From contig NZ_VKAB01000016.1 of NCBI RefSeq assembly GCF_009769385.1, positions 248,001 to 312,000 on the forward strand: a stretch of 64,000 nt of DNA, given 5' to 3'. The stretch's first letter is position 1. The number at the start of each line of letters is the position of its first letter. The notes below the pieces were generated by a model. The model did no database searches. It was given only the letters and a program-made list of their open reading frames with translations, and was not told where the DNA came from. The DNA comes from Saccharothrix deserti (GTDB lineage: Bacteria; Actinomycetota; Actinomycetes; Mycobacteriales; Pseudonocardiaceae). Made by a program: the position numbers and the translations under genes. Shown piece by piece: positions 11,635 to 30,352 of this stretch.

Positions 11635-13830
11635 ATGGCACTTCTGTTGCAGAGACTCGGCTTGGCCGCCTATCGGCGCCGGTTGGCGGTTGTCCTGCTG
11701 TGGCTGGTCGTCCTGGTCGGCTCGGGTGTGGGTGCCGTGACGCTGTCCGGCACCACGTCGAACAGCTTCTCGATCCCCGGTCAGGAGTCCTCCACCGCGC
11801 TGGAGAAGATCCAGTCGGAGTTCGGCGGTAGTGGTGCGACCGCACGCGTGGTGGTGCGGGCCCCCGAGGGGCAGACGCTGACCACGCCGGAGAACGCCCA
11901 GGCCGTCGGGAAGATGGTGGCCGAACTCGGCGCCCTGCCCGGTGTGTCCTCGGCGAGCAACCCGCTGGACCCGGCCGCACCGACGGTCAACGCCGGGCAG
12001 AACACCGCCTACAGCACGGTGACCTACAACGCCGCCGTGGGTGAGGTGACCGCCGAGCAGCAGACCGCGCTGCTCAGCGCCGTCGACAACGTCCGAGCGG
12101 GCGGGTTGACCGCCGAGGTGACGGGCGAGGCCACCCAGACGCCACCGCACATCGGCGGCGTGACCGAGGCGCTCGGCGTCGTCATCGCCCTGTTGATCCT
12201 CGCGCTGACCTACGGGTCGCTGGTCACGGCCGGGATGAACCTGCTGACCGCTGCCGTCGGCGTGGGCATCGGCGTCCTGGGCATCACCATCGCCACCGGG
12301 TTCATGGAACTGCAGTCCACCACCACGGCGCTGGCCGGCATGTTGGGCCTGGCCGTCGGCATCGACTACGCCCTGTTCATCATCAACCGCTACCGGCAGG
12401 AACTGCGGCGCGGCGCGGACGTTCCGGCCGCCATCGGCATCGCCGTGGGCACCGCCGGGTCGGCGGTGGTGACCGCGGGCATCACCGTGGTCATCGCCCT
12501 GGTGGGGCTGATCGTGGTCGGCATCCCGTTCCTGACGCAGATGGGTGTCGCCGCGGCCGTGACCATCGTGGTGGCCGTCCTCGTCGCCGTCACGCTGGTG
12601 CCCGCCGTGCTCGGTTTCCTCGGCCGCCGCGCCCTTCCGCGCAAGCAGCGCACCGCCCCGGCGGACCCGGCCGAGACGACCGAGGCGACCGGCACGCCGG
12701 AGCGGGGCTTCTACGCGGGCTGGATCGGCACGATCACCCGGCGCCGGGTGGCGGCGCTGCTGCTGTCGATCATCGCCCTGGGTGTCGTCGCGGTGCCGTT
12801 CGCGTCCATGCAGACCACCCTGGTCCAGTCACCCGAGGCGGACAGCACCCAGGAACGGGCCGAGCAGCTGCTCACCGACGGCTTCGGCCCCGGCTTCAAC
12901 GGGCCGCTGATCGTCCTGTTCGAGGGCGACAACGCCGTCCGGACCGCCACCGAGGCCTCGGGGCCGATCGGCGCGCTCGGCGACGTCGCCTTCGTGGCCC
13001 GCGCCATCCCCGACGCCGACGGCACCGCGGCCCTGCTCACCGTCATCCCCGAGTCCGGTCCCACCAGTGAGGCCACCGAGCGGCTCGTCACCGACATGCG
13101 CGACTACCTGGCCGGTCTCGACGGCGTCACCGCGTCCGTCACCGGCGCCACGGCGGTCAGCGTCGACGTGGCCGTGGCCCTCGACGAGGCGCTGCCGATC
13201 TACCTCGTGCTGGTCGTGGGTCTGGCGCTGATCCTGCTCGTGCTGGTGTTCCGGTCGCTGCTGGTGCCGCTGGTCGGCGTGCTCGGCTTCCTGCTGACCG
13301 TGGGGGCCTCGCTCGGCGCGACCGTCGCGGTGTTCCAGTGGGGCTGGCTGGCCGACGCGATCAACCTCGACACCACCGGACCGCTGATCAGCCTCACCTC
13401 GATCCTGGTGATCGGCATCCTGTTCGGCCTCGCCATGGACTACCAGATCTTCCTGGTCTCCCGCATGCACGAGGCCCACCACCGGGGCGCCGCGCCCCGT
13501 GACGCCATCCTGACCGGCTTCCGCCAGGCCGCCCCGGTCGTCGTCGCCGCGGCACTGATCATGTTCTCGGTCTTCGCCGGGTTCGTCCCGGCGGGCCAGC
13601 TCGCGATGAAGTCCATCGCCTTCGCCCTGGCCATCGGCATCCTCGCGGACGCGTTCGTGGTCCGCATGGTCCTGGTGCCGGCGGCGTTGGCCCTGCTCGG
13701 CGAACGGGCCTGGTGGCTGCCCAAGTGGCTGCGGTGGCTGCCCGCCCTCGACGTCGAAGGCGCCGCGCTCGTCCAGGAGGACCCGAAGACCGAGACCGAG
13801 GGGCACGTGCGCGGCGACGCCGGCCGCTAG
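11635..13830 (+). CDS. MMPL-family RND transporter
   Basis: A 731-residue membrane protein with the duplicated MMPL topology: one N-terminal TM, a large extracytoplasmic porter loop, five TMs, then the same again. The Asp-Tyr proton-relay pairs of MmpL proteins are present in both halves (AVGIDYALF at about residues 240-248, and GLAMDYQIF in the second half). It should be a proton-driven exporter of lipids or a hydrophobic metabolite. It lacks the long cytoplasmic C-terminal tail of MmpL3, so it looks like the drug/pigment-export type (ActII-3-like). It forms an operon with the preceding TetR gene and ends at a strong terminator. Confidence 0.88.
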   Translation: MALLLQRLGLAAYRRRLAVVLLWLVVLVGSGVGAVTLSGTTSNSFSIPGQESSTALEKIQSEFGGSGATARVVVRAPEGQTLTTPENAQAVGKMVAELGALPGVSSASNPLDPAAPTVNAGQNTAYSTVTYNAAVGEVTAEQQTALLSAVDNVRAGGLTAEVTGEATQTPPHIGGVTEALGVVIALLILALTYGSLVTAGMNLLTAAVGVGIGVLGITIATGFMELQSTTTALAGMLGLAVGIDYALFIINRYRQELRRGADVPAAIGIAVGTAGSAVVTAGITVVIALVGLIVVGIPFLTQMGVAAAVTIVVAVLVAVTLVPAVLGFLGRRALPRKQRTAPADPAETTEATGTPERGFYAGWIGTITRRRVAALLLSIIALGVVAVPFASMQTTLVQSPEADSTQERAEQLLTDGFGPGFNGPLIVLFEGDNAVRTATEASGPIGALGDVAFVARAIPDADGTAALLTVIPESGPTSEATERLVTDMRDYLAGLDGVTASVTGATAVSVDVAVALDEALPIYLVLVVGLALILLVLVFRSLLVPLVGVLGFLLTVGASLGATVAVFQWGWLADAINLDTTGPLISLTSILVIGILFGLAMDYQIFLVSRMHEAHHRGAAPRDAILTGFRQAAPVVVAAALIMFSVFAGFVPAGQLAMKSIAFALAIGILADAFVVRMVLVPAALALLGERAWWLPKWLRWLPALDVEGAALVQEDPKTETEGHVRGDAGR

Positions 13831-14720: not shown

Positions 14721-15350
14721 TCAGCGCAGGAGCAGGCGCAGGACGCCCTCGGCTTTCTCGATGTTCGGTTCCTGGCCGGCGATGATGTTGAGGTACGTGT
14801 ACGACTCGATGATCCGGACGATGACGTACGCGACCTCGTGCAGGTCGGCGGGCAGGGCCATCCGGCCGGCATCGGTCTCCTCCTGGAGGATCTGCCGGAA
14901 CGCCTCGATCAGGCGGGGCTGGAAGCCGGTGTCGTGCCTGGTCAGCAGGCGCATCGCCAGTTCACCCTCGGTGGCGATCCAGTGCTTCATGCCGGGGTTG
15001 TCGAGGACCTGCTCGAGGAACCCCGTGGCGATCCGGACCACCCGTTCCGAGCCCGTCTCCCGGACCTCCCGGTTCAGCTCGCCGATCACGAACTCCGTCA
15101 GCGACCACGTCACCTCGACCAGCAGCTGGTCGCGCGAGCCGACCCACCGGTAGAGGGTGACGCGGCTGATCTCCAGCTGCTCGGCCAGCACGCTCATGTC
15201 GATGCGCTGTTGGCGCAGGAAGTTGCGCTTGGCCTGGCGGAGGGCGTCCACGGGCGTGGGTCGGGTGCGCTTCTTCAGCGCGGCGAGGTCCTGCTGCAGC
15301 TTCGTCGGACCGCGGGCGTCCGACCCGCCCACAGGAGACATGGATGTCAT
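14721..15350 (-). CDS. TetR-family regulator of the FAAL-acyltransferase-MFS operon
   Basis: Start chosen at ATG 15350, which overlaps the MFS stop (ATGA); another ATG lies 9 bases downstream. This gives 209 residues. The HTH is at about residues 38-80 (MSVLAEQLEISRVTLYRWVGSRDQL), preceded by a basic stretch, with a TetR-like all-helical C-terminal domain. It is the last gene of a four-gene operon (FAAL, antigen-85-like, MFS, TetR) and is the natural candidate for binding the inverted repeats in the FAAL/PKS divergent promoter. The ligand is probably the exported lipid or a precursor, which is inference. Confidence 0.82.
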   Translation of the reverse strand: MTSMSPVGGSDARGPTKLQQDLAALKKRTRPTPVDALRQAKRNFLRQQRIDMSVLAEQLEISRVTLYRWVGSRDQLLVEVTWSLTEFVIGELNREVRETGSERVVRIATGFLEQVLDNPGMKHWIATEGELAMRLLTRHDTGFQPRLIEAFRQILQEETDAGRMALPADLHEVAYVIVRIIESYTYLNIIAGQEPNIEKAEGVLRLLLR

Positions 15351-16801
15351 GGTCGCACAGCCCGGCGCGAGGGCCGTCGGGTGATCTTGCCCGCGCCGGC
15401 GGACAGCGCGAGCAGGAACGCCACGGCCACCGCGAGCGCGGCTACCAGCACACCGGCCGCGTAACCGTCGGCGATTGACTTCGGTTCTCCGTCGGAGGCA
15501 GCGGCGGTGACGGCGTACGTGCTGCCGACGGCGGCGACGCCCAGCGCGCCCGCCAGCTCGCGGGCGGCGGTGACGGCTCCGGAGGCCACCCCGGCGAACC
15601 GGTCCTCCACCGAGTCCAGCACCGCCGTGGTCAACGGGGTGGTGAGCGCCGAGCCGAACCCGGCCAACGCCAGGCAGGCGAGCAGTCCCCCGGCGTGCGC
15701 GCGGTCCGCGAGTCCGACGATGGCGAACAGCGCCACCGCGACCAGTGCCAGTCCGAGGCCCGCGACGTGCCACGAGCCGATCCGCCGCACCAGCGGGGCC
15801 ACGACCGGCGTGCCCACCACCACCGCCAGCGCGATCGGCACGAAGAACAGGCCGCTGCCCGCCGGCGTGAGCCCGAGGACCCGTTCCAGGTACGGCGGGC
15901 TGACGAACAGCAGCCCGGTGATCGCGATGCTCCACAACGCCTGGGCCAGTGCGCCGACCACGAACACCCGCCGCCCGATCACGGCACGCGGCAGCAGCGG
16001 GTGCGCGGTCCGCCTCTCGTGGACGACGAACACCAGCGACGCCGCCACCGCCACCACGACGAGCACGGGCGGGCCGGTGTCGAGCAGGAGGGCCATGAAG
16101 GCGAACATCGCCACCGACAGGGCCGTGGTCCCGAGCACGGTCAGCCGCGTCCTCGCGCCCGGTCCACCCGGTGTGCCCGGTCCGCCCGGCCGCAGCGTCA
16201 CGGCCGCCAGCACGAGCGTGACCAGGCAGCACGGCACCGCGCCCAGGAAGATCCACCGCCAGTGCGCGAACTGGGACAACGCACCGCCCAACGCCGGACC
16301 GATCGCCAGCGCGGCAGCCAGCGCCGCCGTCCACACCGCGATGCCGAGTGGACGGTGTCGCGGGTGCAGGTCGGTGCGCAGCAACGCGAGTCCGGTCGGC
16401 ACGAGCAGCGCCGCCGCGGCGCCCTGCCCCGCCCGCCACAGCGCCAACGCCACACCCGACCCGGCGGTGCCACACCCCAGTGAGGTGACGGCGAACGCGG
16501 CCAGGCCGATCAGCAGCACCCGCCGTGGGCCGAACCGGTCGCCCAGCGCGCCCGCCGTGATCAGCAGACCGGCGAAGACGAGCATGTAGCTCACCACGAC
16601 CCACTGCAGGCCCGTCGTGGACAGCCGCAGGTCCGCGCCGATCGTCGGCAACGCCACCATCAGGATGCTGTTGTCCAGCGCGGTGACGAACCCGGCGAAC
16701 CCGGCGACGAGCACCGTCGGCAACGGTCGCCGCGCCACCGGGTCCGCTCCCCCGGCCACACCACCGGCGTCCACACCACCGGGATCCACGCCGGGGTCCA
16801 C
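15347..16801 (-). CDS. MFS transporter (EmrB/QacA-type, 14-TM)
   Basis: A 484-residue membrane protein from GTG with about 14 hydrophobic segments. It carries the MFS motif A region between TM2 and TM3 (GALGDRFGPRRVLLIG) and a motif C-like stretch (ALAIGPALGGAL) of drug/proton antiporters. It sits one base after the antigen-85-like gene and overlaps the TetR gene, so it is part of the lipid-locus operon. It probably exports the product or a precursor across the membrane. No MmpL3-type flippase is encoded in this operon, so this protein may take that role. Confidence 0.88.
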   Translation of the reverse strand: MDPGVDPGGVDAGGVAGGADPVARRPLPTVLVAGFAGFVTALDNSILMVALPTIGADLRLSTTGLQWVVVSYMLVFAGLLITAGALGDRFGPRRVLLIGLAAFAVTSLGCGTAGSGVALALWRAGQGAAAALLVPTGLALLRTDLHPRHRPLGIAVWTAALAAALAIGPALGGALSQFAHWRWIFLGAVPCCLVTLVLAAVTLRPGGPGTPGGPGARTRLTVLGTTALSVAMFAFMALLLDTGPPVLVVVAVAASLVFVVHERRTAHPLLPRAVIGRRVFVVGALAQALWSIAITGLLFVSPPYLERVLGLTPAGSGLFFVPIALAVVVGTPVVAPLVRRIGSWHVAGLGLALVAVALFAIVGLADRAHAGGLLACLALAGFGSALTTPLTTAVLDSVEDRFAGVASGAVTAARELAGALGVAAVGSTYAVTAAASDGEPKSIADGYAAGVLVAALAVAVAFLLALSAGAGKITRRPSRRAVRP

Positions 16802-16802
16802 G

Positions 16803-17765
16803 TCAGCCGGGCAGGCCGAGCGCGGTCATCAACTGCGGCCAGGAGCGGCGCAGTTCGCGCTGCCAGTACGGCCAGGTGTGGGTGCCGTCGCCGTACGCGT
16901 TGACGGTGATCGGGATGTTCAGCAGGCGCATCCTGAGCACGAAGTCGGGCGAGGTGGCGCCGACGATCCGCTCATTGGCGTCGTAGTCGAAACCTGGGTC
17001 GAGCGGGCCGGTGAACCCGTTGCCGTAGGACATGTACAACGACGTCCCGCGCAGCCCGGCGGCGAGTTCCTTCGGGTTGTTCGCCCGCCAGACCTGCTCC
17101 TGGAAGCGGTCGTCGCCCCACAGCGCGCTCGCGGACAGGCCTTCGCGCAGCACGGTCGCCGTCACGTACGCCGGCACACCGACGAACTGGGTGGACAGCA
17201 CGCCGCTGTACGACGCCGCCGCCTTGAAGTACCCCGGTCGCTTGGCCGCGTACTTGAACGCGCCCGTGCCGCCGGCGGACAGACCGGCGATCGCCCTGCT
17301 GCTGCCGGCGCGGTAGCCGCGTTCGAGCAGCTGGACCAGTTCGGTCATGTGGAACGTCTCCCACGCGGGCGTGCCGCCGCGACCGCCGTTCCACCAGTCC
17401 GAGTACCAGCCTGCCCGGCCGCCGTCGGGCATGACGATCAGCACGTCGCTGGACGCGCTCAGCTGCTCGACATCGGTTTCCCTGGTCCACGAGGTGTAGT
17501 CGTCGCCGCACCCCTGGAGCAGGAACAGCACCGGCCAGGTGCGGGTCGCGGTCGGCGACCAGCCGGGCGGCGTCAGCAGCCGCACGGGGACGTTGCCGCC
17601 GATGGCGGGCGAGTTGACGGTGAGGTCGTAGGTTCGGTCGTCCAGGCGGGTCTGCTTCACCACGGTCGCGCCGTCGTCGGCCACGACCGCGACGGCGGGC
17701 GGTGCGGGCACGATGACCGACACCACCAACGCGGCGGCCACGGCGAGGGGTGATCTGAGGGACAT
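16803..17765 (-). CDS. Secreted antigen 85-like esterase/mycolyltransferase-family protein
   Basis: Start set at 17765, where an AGGAG site precedes a good signal peptide (residues 1-27, ending APPAVA); an upstream in-frame ATG at 17798 adds 11 non-signal residues. The 320-residue protein is an esterase-D/antigen-85 alpha/beta hydrolase. Nucleophile Ser163 (AGLSAGGTGAF), acidic residue probably Glu265, His296 (GDGTHTWPYWQ). The last motif and the region 226-250 (WRANNPKEL, then YGNG) closely recall antigen 85 (GTHSWEYW; WVYCGNG). Antigen 85 proteins transfer mycolyl chains between trehalose and arabinogalactan outside the cell. Placement 37 bases after the FAAL gene suggests it transfers or hydrolyses the PKS-made lipid. 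Confidence 0.75.
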   Translation of the reverse strand: MSLRSPLAVAAALVVSVIVPAPPAVAVVADDGATVVKQTRLDDRTYDLTVNSPAIGGNVPVRLLTPPGWSPTATRTWPVLFLLQGCGDDYTSWTRETDVEQLSASSDVLIVMPDGGRAGWYSDWWNGGRGGTPAWETFHMTELVQLLERGYRAGSSRAIAGLSAGGTGAFKYAAKRPGYFKAAASYSGVLSTQFVGVPAYVTATVLREGLSASALWGDDRFQEQVWRANNPKELAAGLRGTSLYMSYGNGFTGPLDPGFDYDANERIVGATSPDFVLRMRLLNIPITVNAYGDGTHTWPYWQRELRRSWPQLMTALGLPG

Positions 17766-17802
17766 TGCGGGCTCCTGACGGGGTCGAGGCCGGGTCACGC
17801 GG

Positions 17803-19545
17803 TCACGCGGTCACGGCGAAGCTGCCTTCGAGGTACCTCTCACGGCACAGGGAGCGGGACAGCTTGCCGCTCGACGTGCGCGGCACCGTGCCCGGTTCGG
17901 CCAGCACGACGTCGTGCACGCGCAGGTCGTGGTGCGTGGACACCTCGGCCCGCACCAGAGCGGCGAGCCGTGCGAGGTCGATGTCCTCTCGTGGGGTGCG
18001 CGGGCTGCGTTCCGCGACGACGACCAGCACCTCCTGGTCGCCGCGGTCGACGGCGAAGGCAGCGACGTGGCCGTCCCGCAGGGCGGAGTCGACCGACTCC
18101 ACGGTGGCCTCGATGTCCTGCGGGTAGTGGTTGCGGCCGTCGATGATGATCGTGTCCTTGATCCGGCTGACCACGTAGAACTGCCCCTCGTGCCGCACGC
18201 CCAGGTCGCCGGTGCGCAGCCAGCCGTCGCGCGGCAGCCCGGCCGGCGGGTCGGTGACGGTCGTGCCGAACACGCCGACGTCCCGTTCGCCGCCGGACCA
18301 GTAGCCGGGTGAGACGTTGGGGCCGGACACCCGGATCTCGCCGACCCGTCCGTCTGGCAGCGGCTCGTCGGTGGCCGAGTCCACGATCAGGACGTGCTGG
18401 TCGACGGGTGCCCCGTGGCCGACCAGTGTGGTGCTCGGCTGCCCGTCGACAGGGGCGACGGCGCGGCCCGCGGCGAGCGCGGCCCGGTCGAAGGCCGTGG
18501 TCACCGGCGCCTGCCGGGCGGCGGTGACGTAGACGGTGGCCTCTGCCAGGCCGTAGGACGGGCGCTGGACGTCCGCACCCAGGCCGTGCGGCGCGAAGGC
18601 CTCCTGGAACCGGGCCACGGTGCCGGCGCGCACCGGCTCACTGCCGTTGGCCAGCGTGAGCACGCCGGTCAGGTCCAGCGTGGACCGCTTGGCCTCGGGC
18701 ACGCGGCGCACGCACAGGTCGTAGGCGAAGTTCGGCGCCGCGCTGAGCACCGACTGCCGGCCACTCATCGCTTCGAGCCAGCGGATCGGGCTGTACAGGA
18801 ACGCGAGCGGGTCCATGAACACGGTTTCCGACCCGAACACCAGTGGCGAGCCCATGCCCAGCACCAGACCCATGTCGTGGAACAGCGGCAGCCAGCTGAC
18901 CGGGCTCACCTCGTCCACCACGCCGTAGGCGCGCAAGGCCTGCCGGGCGTTGACCATCAGGTTCCGGTGCGTCACGACGACACCGGCGGGTTGCCGGGTG
19001 GAGCCCGACGTGTACTGGAGGTACGCGGGCTGGTCGGCCTGCGTCGCGGCGATGGTTCCGGTCGGTGGCAGCGCCTCCAGGTCCTCGACCGCCAGGACGT
19101 CGAACGGCCCGGCCAGCTCCTCCCGGGTCGCCGCGAGCAGTGCCGTTGTGGTGAGCAGGGCCTTCGGCGCGCAGTCGCCCAGCACGCCGACGATCCGATC
19201 GCGGTGCCCGGCGCCGTCGACCGGGAAGAGCGGCACCGCGAGCACCCCGGCGTAGAGGCACCCGAAGAACGCCGTCACGTAGTGGAGTCCTTGCGGCAGC
19301 AGCAGAACGGCGCGGTCACCGGGTTCGGCGCGGGCGCGCAGGCCGGATGCGATGGCGCGGGCCCGACTGTCCACTTCGGACCAGGTGAGCGTGGTGGCGC
19401 GACCGCGGTTGTCCTCCGAGTAGTCCACGAAGGTGAAGGCCGGCCGGTCGGGCTTCTCCCGCGCCCAGCGCAGGACCGCCTCCGTGACCGTGCCCCGGCC
19501 GACTTCGGACGCCGGTACCCGGCCGGGTGACATCGCGACAGTCAT
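17803..19545 (-). CDS. Fatty acyl-AMP ligase (FAAL, FadD32-like)
   Basis: A 580-residue adenylate-forming enzyme with ribosome-binding site GGAGG at 5-base spacing. Key motifs: A3 LQYTSGSTRQPAG (177-189), SYGLAEATVYV as in FAALs rather than CoA ligases, RTGDLG, and the C-terminal IIIDGRNHYPQDIE that is characteristic of FadD32-type FAALs. The C-terminal catalytic lysine is about Lys561 (TSSGKLSR). FAALs activate fatty acids as acyl-AMP and hand them to an acyl carrier domain instead of CoA. The divergent PKS begins with a carrier domain of just the type FadD32 loads, so the partnership is strongly implied. First gene of a four-gene operon. Confidence 0.88.
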   Translation of the reverse strand: MTVAMSPGRVPASEVGRGTVTEAVLRWAREKPDRPAFTFVDYSEDNRGRATTLTWSEVDSRARAIASGLRARAEPGDRAVLLLPQGLHYVTAFFGCLYAGVLAVPLFPVDGAGHRDRIVGVLGDCAPKALLTTTALLAATREELAGPFDVLAVEDLEALPPTGTIAATQADQPAYLQYTSGSTRQPAGVVVTHRNLMVNARQALRAYGVVDEVSPVSWLPLFHDMGLVLGMGSPLVFGSETVFMDPLAFLYSPIRWLEAMSGRQSVLSAAPNFAYDLCVRRVPEAKRSTLDLTGVLTLANGSEPVRAGTVARFQEAFAPHGLGADVQRPSYGLAEATVYVTAARQAPVTTAFDRAALAAGRAVAPVDGQPSTTLVGHGAPVDQHVLIVDSATDEPLPDGRVGEIRVSGPNVSPGYWSGGERDVGVFGTTVTDPPAGLPRDGWLRTGDLGVRHEGQFYVVSRIKDTIIIDGRNHYPQDIEATVESVDSALRDGHVAAFAVDRGDQEVLVVVAERSPRTPREDIDLARLAALVRAEVSTHHDLRVHDVVLAEPGTVPRTSSGKLSRSLCRERYLEGSFAVTA

Positions 19546-19918
19546 CCGAACCTCCTCGATGAGGTGAGAAGCGGAGTGCGAGCGGCGGAACGCGACGTGC
19601 AGCTAAGCCACGTCACGTCGCATAACGGAACAAACCGTTCATGTGTAACAACGCGAGGACGCTACATTTACGCCTCAGAGTGTGTCAACGAGCGCTTTGA
19701 GTGACCGATACAGGGGATTACACACCCAAACGGCCTATTGCCGTACAGGAGCGCGGGCCGCAATCATCAGGTTTCCGTTCATTACAGAAGCTCCAAGTGT
19801 TACATTCGCCGTTCTGCGAACCAGGTTCGTGGGACGCCGCACCAGCCGCCGGGCCGTGTCCGCCGCCCGCGTTGCCCGCGCGTTCCACCCGTCCCTGCTC
19901 ACCGCCCCGAAGGTGCCC
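19546..19918. promoter_or_regulatory. Divergent promoter region between FAAL and PKS, with three inverted repeats
   Basis: This 373-bp gap is clearly more AT-rich than its surroundings. It holds GACGTG (19594-19599) facing CACGTC (19609-19614); AACGG-N6-CCGTT (19624-19639); and TGTAAC (19644-19649) facing GCTACA (19661-19666), 5 of 6 paired. TGTAACA (19644-19650) also faces TGTTACA at 19798-19804. These are candidate operators for the TetR protein at 14.7 kb, controlling both arms of the locus. No convincing -10/-35 pair can be assigned by eye. Confidence 0.55.
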
Positions 19919-22900
19919 ATGAGCGGTCACACCCCGTCGACCGAAGCCGGCCTCAGAGACTGGTTGGCAGCCAACATCGCCGAGACCGTCGGCCTCCCGC
20001 CCGAGGACCTCGACGTCGACCGCCCGCTCGTCGAACTGGGGCTGTCGTCCCGCGACGCCGTGGTGCTGGCCGGCGCGCTCGGCGAGGTCACCGGCCTCGA
20101 CCTGCCGGTCAGCGCGCTGTGGCAACACCCGACCGTCGCCCAACTCGCGCGCCACCTGTCCGACCGGACCGAGGGCGGTGCACGGGGTGAACCCGAGCCC
20201 GGTCGCACGGCCACCGACGAGGCGATCGCCGTCATCGGTCTGGGCTGCCGACTCCCCGGCGGTGTGCACGGCCCGGACGAGTTCTGGTCCCTGCTGCGCG
20301 ACGGACGCGACGCGGTGCGCGCGGCACCGCTCGAACGCTGGGACGCGATGCCCGACGGCGCGCCCCGGTGGGGCGGTTTCCTCGACGACATCACGGGTTT
20401 CGACGCCGAGTTCTTCGGCATCGCGCCGCACGAGGCGGCGAGCATGGACCCCCAGCAGCGGCTGGTGCTGGAGGTGGTCCAGGAGTCGCTACAGCACGCG
20501 GCCGTCCCGGCGGACTCGTTGCGCGGCACGGCAACCGGCGTGTTCGTCGGCATCTCGGCCGGCGAGTACGGCGCGGCGTCCGCCGTCGACCCGGCCCGGA
20601 TGAGCCCGTGGACCGCAACCGGCGGCGCGCTGAGCATCGCGGCCAACCGGGTGTCGTACCTGCTGGACCTGCGCGGACCCAGCATGGCGGTGGACACCGC
20701 GTGCTCGTCGTCGCTGGTGGCGGTTCACCAGGCGTGCCAGAGCCTGCGTTCGGGTGAGAGCGACACCGCGTTGGTGGCCGGGGTGAACCTGCTGCTGACG
20801 CCCGCGCTCACGGTGGGCTTCCACCGGGCCGGGCTGTTGTCGGCGGACGGCCGCTGCAAGCCGTTCGACGCCTCGGCCGACGGTATCGCCCGCGCCGAGG
20901 GCTGCGCCGCCGTGGTGCTCAAGCGGTTGTCCGACGCACGACGCGACGGCGACCGCGTGCTGGCCGTGATCCGGGGCAGCGCGGTGAACTCCGACGGCCG
21001 CTCCAACGGTCTGATGGCGCCCAACCCGCGTGCCCAGGCCGAACTCGTCCGGCGGGCCTACCGCGACGCGGGCGTGGACCCGGCGCAGGTGGACTACGTC
21101 GAGGCGCACGGCACGGGCACGCTGCTCGGCGACCCGATCGAGGCGGGCGCGCTCGGCGAGGTGCTGGGCCGTGACCGCGACCCGGACCGCCCGCTGCTGA
21201 TCGGATCGGTCAAGTCCAACATCGGGCACACCGAGTCGGCCGCCGGTCTGGTCGGCCTGGTCAAGACCGTGCTGGCCATCCGGCACGGCGAGATCCCGCC
21301 CAGCCTGCACTTCACCGAACCCAACCCGCACATCGACTTCACCGGGCTGCGCGTGGTCACCGAACCCGTCGACTGGCCCCGGTACGCAGGTCGGGTCACG
21401 GCCGGTGTCTCGTCGTTCGGGTTCGGCGGCACCAATGCGCACGTGGTGCTGGAGGAGGCCGCCGCGCTCGAAGGTGCCACGCCGGACGACGACGCCGTCC
21501 ACGCCGTGGTGCTGTCCGGGATGTCCGACGACCGGGTCAGGCGGCACGCCGAGGTGGTCGCGGACTGGTTGCGGGACAACGACACCCCTCTCGGCGCTGT
21601 GGCGGCGACCCTGGCCCGCCGACGTGGGGCCGACCGCGTGCGGGCCGCGGTCGTCGGCCGTGACCGCGCCGAGGTCACCGACCGGCTGCGCGCCATGGCC
21701 ATGGGGCAGCGCACACCGGGCGTGGTCCCCCCACAACCGGTTCGGCGCGCCACGGACCGGAAGCTGGTGTGGGTGTTCTCCGGTTTCGGTTCCGGCAGAC
21801 CGGGCATGGCGCGCGGGCTGCTGGCCGACGAGCCCGCGTTCGCCGCCGCAGTGGACGAGGTGGACGACCTGCTGCGCGAGCACACCGACGTGTCCCTGCG
21901 GGGACTCCTCGTCGACCCGCCCGACGCGATGGACTTCGAGCAGGGTCAGATCGCGTTGTTCGGTGTGCAGGTCGGCCTGGCCGCGCTGTGGCGGTCCTAC
22001 GGCGTGCGGCCGGCAGCCGTCATCGGGCAGTCGTCCGGCGAGGTGGCCGCGGTGGTGGTCGGTGGGGCACTGAGCCTGACCGACGGCGTGCGGGTGGCCG
22101 CCACCCGCGCCCGACTGATGGGCCGGATCGACGCGGCGGACTCGGGTGCGATGGCGGCGGTCGAACTGACCACCAACGAGATCGACGCGTTCACGCACGA
22201 CCTGCCCGACCTCGCGATCGCGGTCCACGCCGCGCCCCGGCGCAACACGGTGGCCGGACCGCGCCCGCAAATCGAGACCCTGATCCGGCGGGCCGAGTCG
22301 CAGGGCCGCCTGGCGACCGTGCTGCCGCTGCGCACCAGTGCGCACACCGCCGCCGTCGACCAGGTGCTCGCCGAACTGCGGGCGGAGCTGCGGTCCGTGC
22401 GGCGACAGGACGGCGGAGTCCCGTGCTACAGCACGGTCACCGAAGAGCCGCCGTCCTTCGACGCCGAGTACTGGGCGCACCACATGCGCCGGCCGGTCCG
22501 CTTCACCCAGGCCGTGGCCGCCGCCGTCGGGGACGGTCACGACGGGTTCCTGGAGGTCTCGCCGCACCCGATCGCGTTGGCCTCGGTCGAGGAGACGGCG
22601 CGGGATGCGGGTCTGGCGGACCTGCTGCTGTGCGGGTCGTTGCGGCGGGACCAGGACGACACGACGACGTTCCACGCGAACCGGGCGTTGCTCGCGGTGG
22701 ACGGGTCGGCTCCCCTGCCCGACGCGGCGGTCACCGATGTACCGGTGGTGCCGTGGCAGCACGTGCGGCACTGGCTCGCGCCGACTCCGACGGCTGTCGG
22801 CACGACGGGGCATCCACTGCTCGGCGCCCACGCCGAGGTTCCGGGTGGGCTCACCCACGTGTGGCACGCCGACGTGGGGCTCAAGGCGTTGCCGTGGTTG

Positions 22901-25900
22901 TCCGACCACTGCGTGCACGACGTGCCGGTGCTGCCCGGCGCGGCGTACACCGAGATCGCCCTGGCCGCCGCGGTCGAGGTGTTGGCGGTGCCCGCGCGGG
23001 ATCTGGCCGTCAGCGATGTCGTGTTCGAAGGGCTGCTCGCGCTGGACGACCAGGTCGCCCTCAGCACTGTCGCCGAGGACGACCGGCGCGGCGGTGTGCG
23101 GGTCGAGATCCACTCCAAGTCCGCCGGTGGGCGGTGGGCCCGGCACGCCACGGCGACCGTCGTGCCGGCCTCGCCCGGTGCGGTGCGTGCGCCGGTCGTG
23201 TGTGACGGACTGGCGGAGTTGGCCCTGTACGACCGGGTGGCGGAGAGCGGGTTGCACTACGGGCCGGCGTTCCGGGGTGTCCGGTCGGTGGTCGCCGGTG
23301 ATGGTCTCGCGGTTGGCGCGATCGCTGTGACGGAGGAGGAACGTTCGGCGCACCTGCCGGTGACGTTGTTCGACTCGTGCCTCCAAGTCCTGGCCGCCGC
23401 CGCGTTCGAACCGCTCGGCGTGCGGGCCGGACGCACCTACCTGCCGGTGGGCATCGGTTCGGTCCGGGTGCACGGCGACCCACGTCAGGGTGTGCGGTGC
23501 GAGGCCGCGGTTGTCGTGGTGGACGACCGGGACGACGAACTGGTCGGCTCGGTGTGGCTCTACGACGACGCCGACGTGCTCCTGGTGGAGGCGACCGACG
23601 TCCGGGTGCGGGTGGTGGACGGGGCGGCGGTGCCCGTGCCGTTGTCCGGGCTCGCCTTCGAGATGCAGTGGGAACGCCTGGCGCTGCCGCCGTCGTCTTC
23701 CGGTAGCCACGACTGGCTTCTGCTCACCGACCAACCCGACGACCCGTTCGTGGCGCGGTTCGCCGCACTAGCGGACGCGGCAGGCGATCGGGTGCGAGTC
23801 GCCGGCTCCTTGCGCGGTGTCGACCAACCCGTGCAAGGAGTCGTGCTCATGCCTGGCGCGATCGGCGGGCCGGGGATGGTCGAGGCGGCCGAACGGGAGG
23901 TGGTCGTGGCGGCACGGGTCGCCGCCGAGTTGGCCGCGAGGCAGGACCCGCCGCGGCTGTGGATCGCGACCCGTGAGGCGTCGGCAGTGGGGTCCGGTGA
24001 GCCGGGATCGCCCGGTCAGGCCGCGTTGCGGGCGTTGGTGCGCGTGCTCGCCTTCGAACACCCCCGGTTGCGCGCGTCCCTGGTCGACCTGCCTCGGACG
24101 GGTGACGCCGAGGCGTTGCTGGCCGAACTGCGTGCCGACCAGGCCGACGACGAGGTGGGGTGGCGCGGACGTGACCGGCACGTGGCCCGGCTGCGGCCCA
24201 CCGCGATCTCCGCGCCCGTGACCGGAGCGGTCGTCCTGCCCGGCTCCTACCTGATCACCGGTGGTCTGGGTGGGCTCGGTCTGGTGGTGGCGCAGTGGTT
24301 GGCCGGGCTGGGCGCGACCCGGGTCGTGCTCAACGGCCGGCGCGGGGCGACCGCCGACAGTGCGGCTGAGCTGGCGAAGATCCAGGCCACCGGCACCGAG
24401 GTGGTCGTGGTGACCGGTGACATCGCCGAGCCGGGTGTGGCCGAACGCGTGGTGGCGGCGGCCGTGGCCGGGGAACGGCGGCTGCGCGGTGTGGTCCACG
24501 CGGCGGGTGCCCTGGTGGACGTGCCGGTCGAGCGGGTGGACGCGGACAGCGTGCGGGCGGCGTTCGCGCCGAAGGCTCGTGGCGCGTGGCGGCTGCACGA
24601 GGCGACCGACGGCCTCGACCTGGACTGGTGGGTGAACTTCTCGTCCGCCGCGGCCATGCTCGGGTCACCGGGCCAGACTCCCTACGCCGCGGCCAACGCC
24701 TGGCTCGACGCGTTCACCGCGTGGCGGCGGTCGCAAGGGCTGGTCGCGACGACCATCGACTTCGGGGCGTGGGGTCAGGTCGGTCTCGCTCGTGACTCGG
24801 ACAACCCGCTGTTGCGGCCGATCTCGCCGGCGGAGGGGATCCAGGCGCTGGAGGCGATCCTGCTCGCCGACCGGCCGGACACGGGTGTCATCCGGATGGA
24901 CCGGCAGGCCGCTGTCGACCTGTTCCCCGAGTTGGGCAGGCGGCCGTTCTTCTCCGCCGTGCTGGCCACACCGTCGACAGTGGACGACGAGTGGCCGGGG
25001 CCGGACGCGCTGCGGGACGTGCCGGACGCGGCGGTGTTGGTGCGGCGCAGGTTGCGGACGGTGGTCGGGCGGGTCATGGGCTATGCCGACGACCAGTTGA
25101 GCACCACCGTCGCGCTGGCCGACCTGGGCTTGGACTCGCTGATGGCGATGCGTGCCCGCAACGCCGTCGAGCACGACCTGGGCGTGCAGCTGCCGATGCC
25201 GCTGCTACTGCGGGGAGCAACCCTCGATGACGTGGCGCGGCACGTCACGACGGAGTTGGGCGTGGTCGACGACGTCGCTTCGCCGGGTCCGGTGGAGACC
25301 GGATTCGTCGCGCCGCGTGATCCGACCGAGCGGTGGCTGGCCGGGTTGTGGGCCGAGGTGCTCGGCCGCTCGCGGATCGACGTCACCGAGGACTTCTTCG
25401 CCGTCGGTGGTGACGCGGAGCGCGCGGAGGTGCTGCTCGCGGCGATCAGGCGGCGGTTGGGTGCGGACGCGCCGACCGGGCGGCTGATGGCGGTGCCGAC
25501 CGTGGAGGGCATGGCCGACGAGCTGCGGTCGGCGTTCGAGGGGGTCGACGGTCCGGTCCGGGTGCTGCGCTGGTCGGGTGGGCGCCCGCCGCTGCACCTG
25601 TTCCACCCGGCGGGCGGGCCGACGAGCGTCTACCAGCCGTTGGTCGAACTCCTGGGCGACGACCAGCCCTGTTACGGCTACGAGCGGCTGGACGACGTGG
25701 CCGATCTGACCGCCAAGGCGGCGCGGTACGTCGAGCTGATCCGGGAGATCCAGCCGACCGGGCCGTACCGGCTGGGCGGGTGGTCGTTCGGCGGTTGCCT
25801 GGCGCACGAGATCGCCTGTCAGCTCCACGCGGCCGGCGAGCGGGTGGACGTCGTCGTGATGATCGACTCCGTCCGGCCGCTGCCGTCGCCCGACGTGCCG

Positions 25901-26389
25901 CCCACCGAGGTCCTCCGGCACCGGTTCGGCCGGTACGTCGAGCACATCCAGCGGACGCACGGTGTCACGGTGCAGCTGCCGTGGGAGGAGCTGGCAGGCC
26001 TGGACGACCACGGTCAGATCGATGCGGTCATCGCCGCCGTGGCGGAGGCGGGCGTGCGGATGAGCGCCGGCGCCCTGCACCACCAGCGGACGTCCTATTT
26101 GGACGCCAGGACGGCGGAGCGCTTCCAGCCCAAGCACTTCCCCGGCTCGGTGGTGTTCTACCGGGCGACCGTGCGGGAAACGCTGACGACCGTGCTGGAC
26201 CCGCGCTACCTGCGGACGTTGGACGACGACGACCTCGGGTGGTCGGACACCGTGGACCGGCTGGACATCGTCCCCGTGCCGGGGGACCACCTCTCCATGA
26301 TCGACCCGCCGAACGTGGAAGTACTGGCCGCGCACCTGAACGCGCTGCTCGCCGACACACCCGTGCCTCGGCCGGGAGAGGCGCAATGA
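19919..26389 (+). CDS. Pks13-like type I polyketide synthase: ACP-KS-AT-DH-KR-ACP-(degenerate carrier)-TE
   Basis: Start set at ATG 19919 (GAAGG site, 5-base spacing; the frame is open from 19682 but the extra 79 residues resemble no domain), giving 2156 residues. Domains: N-terminal ACP (Ser44 in LGLSSRD, as in Pks13); KS about 102-515 (Cys262, His397, His437); AT about 615-910 (Ser705 in GQSSGE); DH about 964-1220 (His997, Asp1152 in DSCLQ; the usual HxxxG glycine is Asp); KR about 1440-1640 (TGGLGG from 1447, Tyr1589); ACP (Ser1740 in LGLDSLMAM); a carrier-like domain whose GGDS serine is Ala1833; TE about 1890-2150 (Ser1956 in GGWSFGG, Asp1983, His2124). The N-terminal ACP, TE and degenerate carrier resemble Mycobacterium Pks13, which condenses two fatty acyl chains and transfers the product to trehalose. 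Pks13 itself has no DH or KR; its ketone is reduced in trans. This enzyme should take an acyl chain from the FAAL, condense it with an AT-loaded carboxyacyl unit, and reduce or dehydrate it before release. The product is inferred. Confidence 0.88.
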
Positions 26390-27327
26390 CCCCGGTCCGG
26401 TCGCGCCTGGCCGCCGTCGTGCTCGTCGTCGGCGTGCTCGCTGGTCAGGCCGCGTCTCCCGGCTACGCCAGCGCTGACTCGGACCCGCCGGCCGGGCCGC
26501 CGCAGTCCGATATCCGCATAGCCCAGTTCTACTCGTGGTGGCATCCGACGGCGTCTCCGGCGGGTGCCAACGATTGGGCCTGCCGGACCACACCGCGTCA
26601 CCCCCGGCCGGTCGTGCTGGTTCTCGGCACCGGGTCCAACGCCTACTACGAGTGGGCACGGATGGCGCCGGTGCTCCGTGGCGAGGGTTATTGCGTGTTC
26701 GCGCCGAACGTCGGTGGCCGGCCCGGCAGTCCGGTGCAGGCCGTCGGGCCGATCGCGGAGACGGCGCGGCAGTTCGCCGTGTTCGTCGACCGGGTGCTGG
26801 CCGCGACCGGTGCGTCCAAAGTGGACGTCGTCGGGCACTCGCAGGGTGGTGTGGTGGCCCGGTACCACCTCAAGTACCTGGGTGGTCGCGAGAAGGTCGA
26901 CGCCCTCATAGGGCTGGCGCCCGCGAATCGCGGCACGACGGTGCACGGCCTGCTCACCCTGATCACCGCGATTCCGCTCACCTCATGGGCGCTCGGCGTC
27001 GGTTGCCCGGCCTGTGTCGAGTTGGAGAGGGGCTCTCGGTTCATGGCCGAACTGAATTCCGGCGGCATGACGTACCCGGAGATCGACTACACGGTGATCA
27101 TCACGAACAGGGACATCGTGGTGTCGCCCTACCGGTCGAGTTTCCTGCCCGCCGGGCCCAACGTGCGCAACACGTTGCTGCAGGACGTCTGCCCGCACGA
27201 GCGCGCTGACCACGTCGACATCACCTACAGCGCGGTGGCGACCCGTCTCGTGCTCAACGCCCTCGATCCCGGTTCCGCCGTCCCGCCCGACTGCGGTCGC
27301 CGGGACGCCAACGCCGGAACGCCCTGA
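26386..27327 (+). CDS. Secreted lipase (class 2/EstA-like alpha/beta hydrolase)
   Basis: Start ATG 26386 overlaps the PKS stop by 4 bp (ATGA), so translation is coupled to the synthase; the 313-residue product begins with a signal peptide (about 1-31). The fold is that of triacylglycerol lipase class 2 and PGAP1-like lipases: GTGSN oxyanion region, nucleophile elbow VGHSQGGVVARYH, a conserved PANRGT segment after it, and a late Asp and His (DHVDI). In mycobacteria the pks13-fadD32 locus also has an exported lipase/thioesterase-type hydrolase (Rv3802c), though of the cutinase type. Likely extracellular acyl hydrolase or transferase acting on the locus product. Confidence 0.8.
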   Translation: MTPVRSRLAAVVLVVGVLAGQAASPGYASADSDPPAGPPQSDIRIAQFYSWWHPTASPAGANDWACRTTPRHPRPVVLVLGTGSNAYYEWARMAPVLRGEGYCVFAPNVGGRPGSPVQAVGPIAETARQFAVFVDRVLAATGASKVDVVGHSQGGVVARYHLKYLGGREKVDALIGLAPANRGTTVHGLLTLITAIPLTSWALGVGCPACVELERGSRFMAELNSGGMTYPEIDYTVIITNRDIVVSPYRSSFLPAGPNVRNTLLQDVCPHERADHVDITYSAVATRLVLNALDPGSAVPPDCGRRDANAGTP

Positions 27328-27336
27328 GGAGCAGCC

Positions 27337-27798
27337 ATGCGCACCTCCCGGAACGGCAACGTGAACGGCAATGGGAACGGGAACGGGAACGGGATTGGGA
27401 ACGGGACAACGCCTGGTGCACGGTGGCAGGACGTGCCCCGCGGCCCGTGGGCCCCGGACGCTCCTCTCGACGCGGAACTGCTCGTGCAGCGGTGCCACGA
27501 CAGCGTCTCGGTCGCGCACCTGGCAGGCCAGGCGGCGGACCTGTTCGCCGGGCTGCCGCGCGGCAAGGCGGCCCGGCTCACGGAGACGCTGGAGGCCCTC
27601 CTGGCGTCCAGGCACCGCACCGCGACCGAGGTGGCCACGGCGCTCGGCATCCACGCGCAGACCGCCCGGTACCGGCTGCGGCAGCTCGACCTGATCCTCG
27701 GCGACCGGCTGGACGACCCGCAGTTCCGGCTGCGAATCCAACTCTCGTTGCGCGCGGACAGGCTGCGACGCGGTTTCCCGGGACAAAGCAGTCAATAG
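27337..27798 (+). CDS. Small PucR-type HTH protein
   Basis: A 153-residue protein. Residues 8-23 are a low-complexity Asn-Gly repeat encoded by a GGGAAC tandem array. The C-terminal half is the PucR C-terminal helix-turn-helix (TATEVATALGIHAQTARYRL). Full PucR/CdaR regulators have a sensor or GGDEF-like domain in front; here only about 60 residues of helical sequence (VAHLAGQAADLFAGL) precede the HTH. It could be a genuine mini-regulator of the lipid locus or a truncated PucR. It starts 10 bases after the lipase stop and so is probably cotranscribed with it. Confidence 0.65.
   Translation: MRTSRNGNVNGNGNGNGNGIGNGTTPGARWQDVPRGPWAPDAPLDAELLVQRCHDSVSVAHLAGQAADLFAGLPRGKAARLTETLEALLASRHRTATEVATALGIHAQTARYRLRQLDLILGDRLDDPQFRLRIQLSLRADRLRRGFPGQSSQ
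27351..27405 (+). repeat. GGGAAC simple tandem repeat inside the PucR-type gene
   Basis: Degenerate hexamer array with perfect GGGAAC units in the stretch 27373-27405, interrupted once by ATT. It encodes Asn-Gly dipeptides, and length change in steps of six keeps the frame. Confidence 0.75.
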
Positions 27799-27929
27799 CG
27801 CGACAACCGCGCGGACCAATGTTGTCAACTGACAGCAGGTTTTATCCGAGGCTATTCACGGCACCACACCGAACCGCTAGTGCCCAATTCACGGAGTCCA
27901 TCTTTCAGTGTCGAAGGAGTTTGATTCCC

Positions 27930-28796
27930 GTGCGTCTCAAGAAATTCTCGCGGCCATTCTCGATGGCCGCCGCGGTCGTCACCGCGACCGCGTTGTTCAT
28001 CTCACCGCAGGCGTCGGCCGATCCCACCGCGTTCGTACAACACGGGCCGGATCCGACATCGCAGTCCGTGCAGGCCCAACGCGGCCCGTACGCCACCTCC
28101 CGAACGACCGTCTCGTCGGGTACGGGCTTCAACCGGGGCACCATCTACTACCCCACCACCACCAGCGAGGGCACGTTCAGCGCGGTGGCGGTCATCCCCG
28201 GATTCACCGAGAGTGAGTCCACCATGTCGTGGTACGGCACCACGTTGTCCTCACACGGGTTCGTGGTGTTCACCCTGGAGGCCGAGGGCGGGCTCGACTT
28301 CCCCGACGCCCGCGCCGACCAGCTGCTCGCTGCGCTGGACTACCTGGTGAACTCGTCGTCGGTGCGCGACCGGGTCGACCGCAACCGGCTCGGCGTGATG
28401 GGCCACTCGATGGGCGGCGGCGGCACGCTGGAGGCGGCGAACGAGCGCCCGTCGCTGCGGGCGGCGATCCCGCTGGCGGCGTGGCACAACACCAAGAACT
28501 TCCCGCAGGTGCAGGCCGCGACACTCGTCATCGGCGCCGAGGGTGACAGCGTCGCCTCGCCCGGCAGTCACTCGGAGCCCTTCTACCAGGGCCTGCGGTC
28601 GGCGGAGAAGGCGTACCTGGAGCTGAACAACGGCAACCACTTCACCACCAATTCCTACACGCCGACCGTCACCAAGTACGCGGTGTCGTGGCTGAAGCGG
28701 TTCCTGGACGACGACACCCGCTACAGCCAATTCCTGTGCCCGCCCCCGTCGCCGGACTCGAACATCAACGAATACCGCCACACCTGCCCGGTCTGA
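27930..28796 (+). CDS. Secreted bacterial cutinase / type I PET-hydrolase-like polyesterase
   Basis: Start GTG 27930 with GAAGGAG upstream; upstream in-frame sequence has no signal peptide. The 288-residue precursor has a Sec signal (1-30, ending QASA). It matches the Thermobifida/LCC cutinase family: Ser160 in GHSMGGGGTLE, Met161, Trp185 in AAWH, Asp206 in GAEGDSVA, His237 in NGNHF, and a C-terminal Cys270-Cys286 pair. The precursor numbering of Ser160, Trp185, Asp206 and His237 is the same as in IsPETase. His159 and Phe238 are the ordinary cutinase residues (type I) and the second PETase disulfide is absent. Phe92 replaces the usual oxyanion-hole tyrosine. Likely hydrolyses cutin or other polyesters extracellularly. 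Confidence 0.85.
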   Translation: MRLKKFSRPFSMAAAVVTATALFISPQASADPTAFVQHGPDPTSQSVQAQRGPYATSRTTVSSGTGFNRGTIYYPTTTSEGTFSAVAVIPGFTESESTMSWYGTTLSSHGFVVFTLEAEGGLDFPDARADQLLAALDYLVNSSSVRDRVDRNRLGVMGHSMGGGGTLEAANERPSLRAAIPLAAWHNTKNFPQVQAATLVIGAEGDSVASPGSHSEPFYQGLRSAEKAYLELNNGNHFTTNSYTPTVTKYAVSWLKRFLDDDTRYSQFLCPPPSPDSNINEYRHTCPV

Positions 28797-28927: not shown

Positions 28928-30352
28928 ATGACCCAGATATTCCGACGATCCGCCGCTGTCGTGGCAGCGGCGGTGTCGACGGTCGCCGCACTCGTGCTCC
29001 CGGTGCCGACCGCCTCCTCGGCACCGACCGCCGCCGTCCCGACCCCGCAGGTGCGTGAGATCCCGTCCACGGCGGGCCGGGGATTCCCGGCCAGCGGCTC
29101 CCACGGCGTGCTCGACCTCGCCGCGCGCGGCTACCTCGAGCAGGAGTACATGCTGTCCGGCACCGCCAGTACCTACCGGGCGGAAGGGCTCTGGACCGAC
29201 AACGGCCGGTGGCGCGCGGTCGTGGACGGGACCGGGGTCGACTACACCACCAGGATGGTGGTGGTCCGCCCGAACAACATGGCCGCGTTCAGCGGAACCG
29301 TCGTGGTCGAGTGGCTGAACGTGAGCTTCGGTGTCGACATCCCGGTGGACTTCTCCCAGTCCTACGAGTACTTCGCGCGGCAGGGCATCGTCTACGTCGG
29401 CCTCACCGTCCAGCAGGTGGGCGCGCAGACGTTGACGAAAATCGACCCCGCGCGGTACGCGGGGGTGTCGATCCCCGACGACTCGGCGTCCTACGACATC
29501 ATGTCCCAAGCGGCACAAGCGATCCGGACCACGCCCGCGCTGCTCGGCGGACAGACCCCGAGGACCGTGCTGGCCACCGGGCACTCCCAGTCGGCGTTCC
29601 GGCTGACGACGTACGCGAACGCGATCCAGCCGTCGCACGGCGTCTACGACGGGATCATGCTGCACGGCCGGGCGGGCGGTGCGGCCCCGATCAACTCCGA
29701 CTCAGCGCTCACGATCACCACCCGGATCCGCGAGGACCTGTCGGTTCCTGTCTTCACGCTCCAGGCTGAGACGGACATCGTCGCCTCGTCCTCGGTGCGC
29801 CAGGACACCGCGCGCGTCCGCACGTGGGAGGTGGCGGGCACGGCTCACGCCGACAAGTACGGCGTCGACCTGTACAACGCGGCCAACGCCCGGGACAAGG
29901 CGGTCAACGACGGGGCACCGACCGTGTGCGACGACCCGATCAACTCGATGACGTTCCGCTACGCGCAGAACGCCGCCTACGATCACCTGATCCGGTGGGC
30001 ACGGGGTGGTGCGGCTCCGCCGACCGCCGAGCCGATCCGGGTGTTGTTCGGCGTCATCGTCGTGCGCGACCAGGACAACAACGCGCTCGGCGGCGTGCGA
30101 CTGCCGGACCTCGACGTGCCGGTGGCGACGTACGGGCCCAACAACAGCGGTGGCAACGTCGCCGCCGCGTGCATGCTGTTGGGGCGGACCACTCCGTTCA
30201 CGCCGGCCCGCATCGCGGCTCTGTACCCGGACCACGCCACCTACGTGGCCCGCTTTACGGCGGCTGCGGATCGAGCCGTGCGGGCGGGGGTGATGCTTCC
30301 GGTGGACCGGAACGAGGCCGTGGCCCGAGCTGCTGCGGCGCCCGTCCCGTGA
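28928..30352 (+). CDS. Secreted alpha/beta-hydrolase domain protein (Abhydrolase_10-like)
   Basis: A 474-residue protein with a signal peptide (1-32, ending TASSA). The alpha/beta-hydrolase nucleophile motif GHSQSA lies near residue 220, with a VEWLN segment earlier and GTAHAD (His) later, as in the uncharacterised alpha/beta-hydrolase domain family common in actinobacteria and mycobacteria. Substrate unknown. It is the last of three secreted hydrolases on the plus strand between 26.4 and 30.4 kb and is separated from the cutinase by 131 bp, so it may have its own promoter. Confidence 0.78.
   Translation: MTQIFRRSAAVVAAAVSTVAALVLPVPTASSAPTAAVPTPQVREIPSTAGRGFPASGSHGVLDLAARGYLEQEYMLSGTASTYRAEGLWTDNGRWRAVVDGTGVDYTTRMVVVRPNNMAAFSGTVVVEWLNVSFGVDIPVDFSQSYEYFARQGIVYVGLTVQQVGAQTLTKIDPARYAGVSIPDDSASYDIMSQAAQAIRTTPALLGGQTPRTVLATGHSQSAFRLTTYANAIQPSHGVYDGIMLHGRAGGAAPINSDSALTITTRIREDLSVPVFTLQAETDIVASSSVRQDTARVRTWEVAGTAHADKYGVDLYNAANARDKAVNDGAPTVCDDPINSMTFRYAQNAAYDHLIRWARGGAAPPTAEPIRVLFGVIVVRDQDNNALGGVRLPDLDVPVATYGPNNSGGNVAAACMLLGRTTPFTPARIAALYPDHATYVARFTAAADRAVRAGVMLPVDRNEAVARAAAAPVP

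Follow-up and report, generated by a model that had tools for sequence, protein, structure and literature searches.

Does a condensing synthase that carries its own DH and KR domains share its ancestry with Pks13, and what lipid would it make in a host that need not make mycolates? The question is raised by one gene in a 64,000-nucleotide stretch of Saccharothrix deserti DNA, here called the window. The open frame reaches 26389 from a GTG at 19682, and the in-frame ATG at 19919 gives 2156 codons and a stop. Pfam placed the KS at residues 101-465, the AT at 617-931, the DH at 965-1237, the KR at 1442-1619, and the TE at 1891-2141, and found PP-binding in three stretches, so that the domain order is ACP1-KS-AT-DH-KR-ACP2-pseudoACP-TE (Table 1). 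The original prediction was of an N-terminal ACP, KS-AT, second ACP, degenerate carrier, and TE laid out as in Pks13, with DH and KR inserted between AT and ACP2. As an observation it was confirmed: Pfam recovered the plan, and alignment found the named residues in place, including DH His997 and Asp1152 and KR Tyr1589. The length of the insert needed correction, to ~790 residues with linkers from the ~650 proposed.

Table 1 Features of the synthase and its neighbourhood in the window.
Feature	Position	Strand	Evidence
MmpL-family transporter, possible exporter	11635..13830	+	
MFS transporter, last gene of apparent FAAL-acyltransferase-MFS operon	15347..16801	-	
PS1/Ag85-family acyltransferase (PF00756), secreted-looking	16803..17798	-	
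Fatty acyl-AMP ligase (FAAL), divergent from synthase	17803..19545	-	
Divergent intergenic region, FAAL / synthase	19546..19918		
Pks13-related condensing synthase, 2156 aa	19919..26389	+	Pfam, NCBIfam, PDB matches
ACP1, loading carrier, LGLSSRD	19958..20158	+	Pfam PF00550; aligned to family
KS, Cys262	20219..21463 (C-terminal limit approximate)	+	Pfam, PDB matches, trees
AT, GQSSG, specificity motif TSAH	21767..22711	+	Pfam, motif alignment, tree
DH, His997/Asp1152/Gln1156	22811..23629	+	Pfam, alignment
KR, Ser1575/Tyr1589/Asn1593, Asp1534	24242..24775	+	Pfam, alignment
ACP2, LGLDSLM, Ser1740	25016..25273 (limits approximate)	+	Pfam, alignment
Pseudo-ACP, Ala1833 replacing serine	25301..25543 (limits approximate)	+	Pfam, family alignment
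TE of Pks13 type, with HQRTSYLD stretch	25589..26341	+	Pfam, tree, PDB scores, alignment
PucR-type HTH protein; membership unsure, similar genes near many family loci	27337..27798	+	

Alignment identified Ser705 and His809 as the AT catalytic residues and Ser1956, Asp1983, and His2124 as the TE triad. By analogy with LGLDSL, the arm-bearing serine of ACP1 should be Ser44. The DH motif HxxxGxxxxP has Asp1001 at the Gly position, and we take Asp1534 of the KR to belong to a B-type motif. The expected TE triad spacing was recovered: Ser1956 and Asp1983 lie 27 residues apart, in a stretch where the window TE aligns gap-free to that of Pks13, and Ser and His lie 168 apart, against 166 for the Ser1533 and His1699 named for Pks13 in PMC5509550. 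The degenerate third carrier is also real, with Ala1833 in the serine column and no Ser in any of the 36 DH-KR synthases aligned (window included). A profile of this domain scored 40 bits with the Pks13 pseudo-ACP in the PDB (6c4v), and NRPS carriers scored higher, up to 74. Pks13 itself is described as having a cryptic serine-less pseudo-ACP (6C4V) between ACP2 and TE (PMC9210659, PMC9900942). Because Pks13 shares this oddity, the window plan can be read as the Pks13 plan plus a DH-KR block inserted after the AT and before ACP2.

The curated models and the trees answer the question of kinship differently. The best NCBIfam match of the window synthase was the Pks13 model NF040607, at 1372.8 bits against a curated cut-off of 2100; four Pks13 controls scored 2624-2831, and five relatives, including L074, which lacks DH-KR, scored 1248-1414. 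The Pks2 model gave 1063 bits. Run over the whole genome, the Pks13 model matched the window gene in two separate pieces (721 and 343 bits), and a piece of another PKS reached 751. Set against the order ACP-KS-AT-ACP-pseudoACP-TE without reducing domains, the window synthase departs from Pks13 in having DH and KR and agrees in the rest. By the curated model, then, it is not Pks13, but the trees place it as kin of Pks13, and Pks13 chains were its best PDB matches (E 9.7e-296).

In the concatenated KS+AT tree, built from 41 chosen rows, one branch (100/99) separated 17 DH-KR synthases, three synthases without DH-KR, and five Pks13 from all 16 other PKS, so that the window KS and AT did not group with ordinary modular enzymes. 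The other KS and AT rows were PKS from the window genome, from G030, G035, G050, G055, G073, G078, and G090, and from one uncultured Marinobacterium, none of them a named PUFA-type or mycobacterial PKS. Family and Pks13 also stood apart from all other rows in quick trees of KS alone (SH-aLRT 97) and AT (SH-aLRT 98), and from six other rows in the TE tree (97/99). Against the PDB, the window TE scored 188 bits with Pks13 and 70 with the next family. The original prediction had proposed that KS, AT, and TE would branch with Pks13, and they did so, apart from the other synthases sampled. The clade indicates kinship with Pks13, and the trees leave the branching order inside it unfixed. Repeats were left out before the KS, TE, AT, and FAAL trees (L001, L083-L085, L089, L093, L101, L104). 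The modular PKS L159 was dropped at a later stage, and five distant rows were removed before a 75-row KS tree. Pks13 rows L075-L078 exceed the model cut-off; the assignment of L153 and L158 to Pks13 is based solely on their genome family, their size, and their place in the tree. The two-module L073, counted as other, falls outside the Pks13 clade. DH-KR presence and absence need three changes on the 75-row tree. Given these changes and the unfixed inner order, we leave the direction (gain or loss) undecided.

These groupings bear on the possibility that the enzyme is an ordinary secondary-metabolite PKS module whose likeness to Pks13 arose by convergence. The genome is PKS-rich and the DH-KR block is of a common PKS type, as such an origin would have it, but KS, AT, and TE all group with Pks13, and the pseudo-ACP and the PS1/Ag85-type neighbour are held in common with Pks13 systems. 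We consider convergence very improbable. A PUFA-type PKS was rejected on score alone (311 bits with the PfaA model vs 1373 for Pks13), with no PfaA in the trees. The Gln of GQSxG was rejected as a mark of Pks13 because it is absent from three of the six Pks13 sampled and from most family members.

Searches of related genomes indicate that the window synthase is one of a widespread actinomycete family. The 36 DH-KR synthases come from five actinomycete families and were read together with five relatives lacking DH-KR and six Pks13. The nearest named relative is in Saccharothrix sp. ALI-22-I (KS 96%). The C-terminal part matched 30 of 99 relatives at E 1e-40, a count that includes the window's own genome, four Pks13 genomes, and weak NRPS-type TEs. 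Alignment A1 matched 65 of 393 genomes of the class at E 1e-60: 38 in the Pks13-holding genome family and 27 elsewhere, among them the window genome and G386 (a modular PKS). From the 65 we drew a second set of 20 loci in 19 genomes. With up to 12 candidates scored per genome, none of the 22 DH-KR-type genomes of the first set held a Pks13 over the cut-off, and all four controls were positive. The window genome has none over the NCBIfam cut-off, and Saccharothrix is placed in the order Pseudonocardiales, which PMC6194230 states to be free of mycolic acids. In genome family f31 (8-11 Mb genomes outside the window's order), L154-L157 are AccD-FAAL-synthase-PS1/Ag85-type cassettes whose synthases, without DH and KR, have a plan nearer to Pks13. 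One genome, G055, holds both types (L058 and L074, one with DH-KR and one without), and two others hold two family synthases each (L066 and L070 in G066; L143 and L144 in G319).

The two added domains differ in their conservation. In the KR, Tyr and Asn are present in all 36 members, and Ser and the Asp1534 equivalent in 35 each. In one automatic alignment the DH His is present in 25 of 36 and the DH Asp in 27, with five members gapped at the Asp. The His is missing in L062, L065, L066, L148-L152, and L160-L162; alignment is weak in the last group, and the DH of L162 was not detected by tblastn. With a near-invariant KR and the DH His lost in 11 of 36, the constant addition appears to be ketoreduction. 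Could the block be largely idle, the synthase acting as a plain Pks13 with reduction elsewhere? The DH losses and the five relatives without the whole block fit such an enzyme, but retention of the KR Tyr, Asn, and Ser over five families points to selection on the KR, and we give this alternative very little weight. Functional reduction in cis is the reading we carry forward. On the residues present, the DH-defective members are predicted to make an alpha-alkyl-beta-hydroxy acyl chain, the mycolate motif. The window synthase has its DH residues, but with Asp1001 in place of Gly, and may also make a 2-alkyl-2-enoyl chain. In mycolate makers the keto group is reduced by a separate reductase (PMC9900942, PMC2568869).

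Transcribed away from the synthase, the FAAL, PF00756 acyltransferase, and MFS genes (15347-19545, minus strand) look like an operon. Across the 36 loci, which are ~20-kb stretches (the window counted by its surroundings), a FAAL was found in 29 (absent from seven), a PS1/Ag85-type gene in 31, an MFS gene in 30, AccD in 10, and MmpL in nine, the MmpL of L162 being a short edge piece. The acyltransferase begins with a hydrophobic stretch that, read by eye, resembles a signal peptide. Its family profile scored 264 bits with PS1, 165 with Cmt1, 147 with Ag85A, and at most 105 with plain esterases in the PDB, which places it closer to the PS1/Ag85 mycoloyltransferases than to other PF00756 esterases. 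The window FAAL scored 488 bits with the FadD32 NCBIfam model (cut-off 975). FAAL as proof of FadD32 kinship was dropped, because the only named mycobacterial FAALs in the FAAL tree (support 92) were those beside Pks13 and FadD32 and FadD23 scored alike in the PDB.

Several further genes lie near these synthases. PucR-type HTH genes occur near 13 of the 20 second-set stretches (e.g. L144, L148-L152, L154-L157, L160-L162), which hints at shared control. A lipase-like frame (26401-27327) lies directly behind the window synthase, with a 49% similar frame in L071 (17906-18748). PETase-like (27426-28796) and Abhydrolase_10 (28928-30352) frames follow downstream and recur beside few other family synthases. 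In L061, L063, and L064, from three genomes of one family, an FxSxx-COOH system TPR protein is encoded next to the synthase, with a TIR domain in the L063 copy.

A PF00756-family gene and AccD lie near the synthase in all six Pks13 loci. Pks13 has AccD4 adjacent, but the neighbouring genes of the window synthase showed no AccD. Of six AccD-like matches in the window genome five were fetched, and none of these joined the AccD4 set in the tree. Among first-set loci, AccD lies beside eight of 22 by tblastn (six of 22 from gene tables). In an AccD tree, from which ten distant AccDs had been removed, linked AccDs grouped with AccD4 and away from the housekeeping PccB sequences (89/88, branch not starred). 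AccDs grouping with AccD4 lie beside 10 of 36 family synthases and four of the five lacking DH-KR. The linked AccD of L062 scored 760 bits with PccB and 543 with the PDB chain labelled D4a, which we take to be AccD4.

Which unit the AT would load can be judged from its four-residue specificity site, where HAFH is read as malonyl and YASH as methylmalonyl (PMC6164871). Family motifs (n=36) were GAGH in 15, TSGH in six, VAGH and GAAH in three each, VAAH and GGAH in two each, and TSAH (window), AGGH, VASH, YASH (L069), and AAAH once each. The six Pks13 divided equally between GASH and GAGH, with TSAH in none of them. GAGH also occurs in four of the five synthases without DH-KR and in none of 34 other ATs. 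The first residue is G, T, V, or A in 35 of 36 family members, all five relatives without DH-KR, and all six Pks13; in the 34 other ATs it is Y, H, F, I, R, or C in 27 and V in seven, never G, T, or A. GHSQG with GAGH has been read as butyl-, pentyl-, or hexylmalonyl (PMC7522111). The small motif residues together with this published reading suggest that the extender is likely larger than methylmalonyl. Crotonyl-CoA carboxylase/reductase genes, present in all six genomes tested, are a possible second extender source. The window genome has two (G000:C1:557595-558770 and G000:C11:21159-22343).

If the AT of an enzyme with this ancestry loaded short units, the product would differ: an ordinary specialised lipid, in which a fatty acid has gained two carbons and a small branch and is attached to a sugar or a peptide. 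The extender would then range from methyl- to hexylmalonyl. The butyl- to hexylmalonyl reading of GAGH lies within this range, and crotonyl-CoA carboxylase/reductase can make alkylmalonyl-CoA. The lack of an AccD seen beside the window synthase and the high PccB score of the L062 AccD agree with it, as do the single-sequence scores of the window AT, in which PpsA (216 bits) and PpsC (215) come slightly ahead of Pks13 (202). Set against these are the joining of the AT to Pks13 at 98 and of KS+AT at 100/99, and the AccD4-grouping AccDs beside family synthases with and without DH-KR. We regard the short extender as unlikely, and as the most serious of the alternatives.

What is shown above is common descent, the arrangement of the domains, the catalytic residues, the neighbouring genes, and the occurrence across genomes; the route proposed from these is putative in its reactions, extender, chain lengths, product, acceptor, and exporter. 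We favour, with moderate confidence, a route in which a FAAL-loaded chain is condensed with an alkylmalonyl extender and the product is reduced in cis to a mycolate-like lipid. The divergently encoded FAAL would adenylate a fatty acid and load it onto ACP1. The AT would select a malonyl unit whose alpha-alkyl group is longer than methyl (a carboxyacyl unit) and place it on ACP2, and the KS would join both chains by Claisen condensation. The KR would then reduce the beta-ketone on ACP2, an in cis equivalent of the in trans step of CmrA for mycolates. With an intact DH, as seems to be so in the window, loss of water may follow and give a 2-alkyl-2-enoyl chain. The Pks13-type TE would hand the chain over to an acceptor, which may be a sugar, and after export the PS1/Ag85-type enzyme would pass the acyl group on extracellularly. 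The interpretation in the original prediction is thus partly supported: the KS, AT, and TE trees back the kinship with Pks13, and the two-chain condensation and new lipid are plausible extensions of it.

No paper on Pks13 kin with DH-KR was among the matches listed in open-licence PubMed Central. PpsA, which is FAAL-loaded, resembles Pks13 in how its AT scores against the window AT, but the window synthase differs from PpsA/Pks2/MAS-type enzymes in having no ER and in having a TE and pseudo-ACP, and two rows whose length suggests MAS-like enzymes (L086, L090) lie apart from the Pks13 clade in the KS+AT tree. The best PDB matches of the window acyltransferase are Corynebacterium PS1 and the antigen 85 mycoloyltransferases, with which it has in common the nucleophile and YSDW-like and GTHxWxYW-like stretches. 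It differs in that genes of the window type adjoin synthases in genomes without Pks13 over the cut-off.

The closest system is Pks13 (Rv3800c) with FadD32 and AccD4, the mycolic acid condensation system, in which a meromycolyl chain is joined to a long carboxyacyl chain and passed to trehalose. By domain comparison and trees, the window synthase and Pks13 share their ancestry, and all of the Pks13 plan (ACP1-KS-AT-ACP2-pseudoACP-TE, pseudo-ACP included) is retained, with a DH-KR block added. The KS/AT/TE clade, the FAAL neighbour, the small AT motif residues, and the Ag85-type genes nearby are alike, and an AccD4-like gene beside the synthase is a likeness in some relatives only. The differences are the built-in DH and KR, the score under the Pks13 cut-off, the 22 of 22 family genomes with no Pks13 over it, the lack of an AccD seen next to the window gene, and a reduction predicted in cis where mycolate makers use CmrA (Rv2509). 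What would be new is a Pks13-type condensation that is most likely coupled to reduction in cis, outside the mycolate makers. More tentatively, and short of an even chance, many non-mycolate filamentous actinomycetes may make and export mycolate-like lipids (alpha-alkyl-beta-hydroxy or 2-alkyl-2-enoyl) and attach them extracellularly via PS1/Ag85-type enzymes. The fadD32-pks13-accD4 locus is said to occur only in mycolate makers (PMC9900942), and Ag85 genes only in mycolate-positive species (PMC6194230). The kin found here, Pks13 relatives below the cut-off and members of the PS1/Ag85 family that are not Ag85 proper, make both statements less sharp. The family would supply naturally occurring enzymes that condense two chains and reduce the product in cis, and the origin of the mycolate layer becomes testable through lipid analysis of these harmless bacteria. 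If the proposal is true, mycobacterial Pks13 would represent a single branch of a lipid system that arose earlier in actinomycetes, with CmrA in the role of the in-cis KR retained by the other branches.
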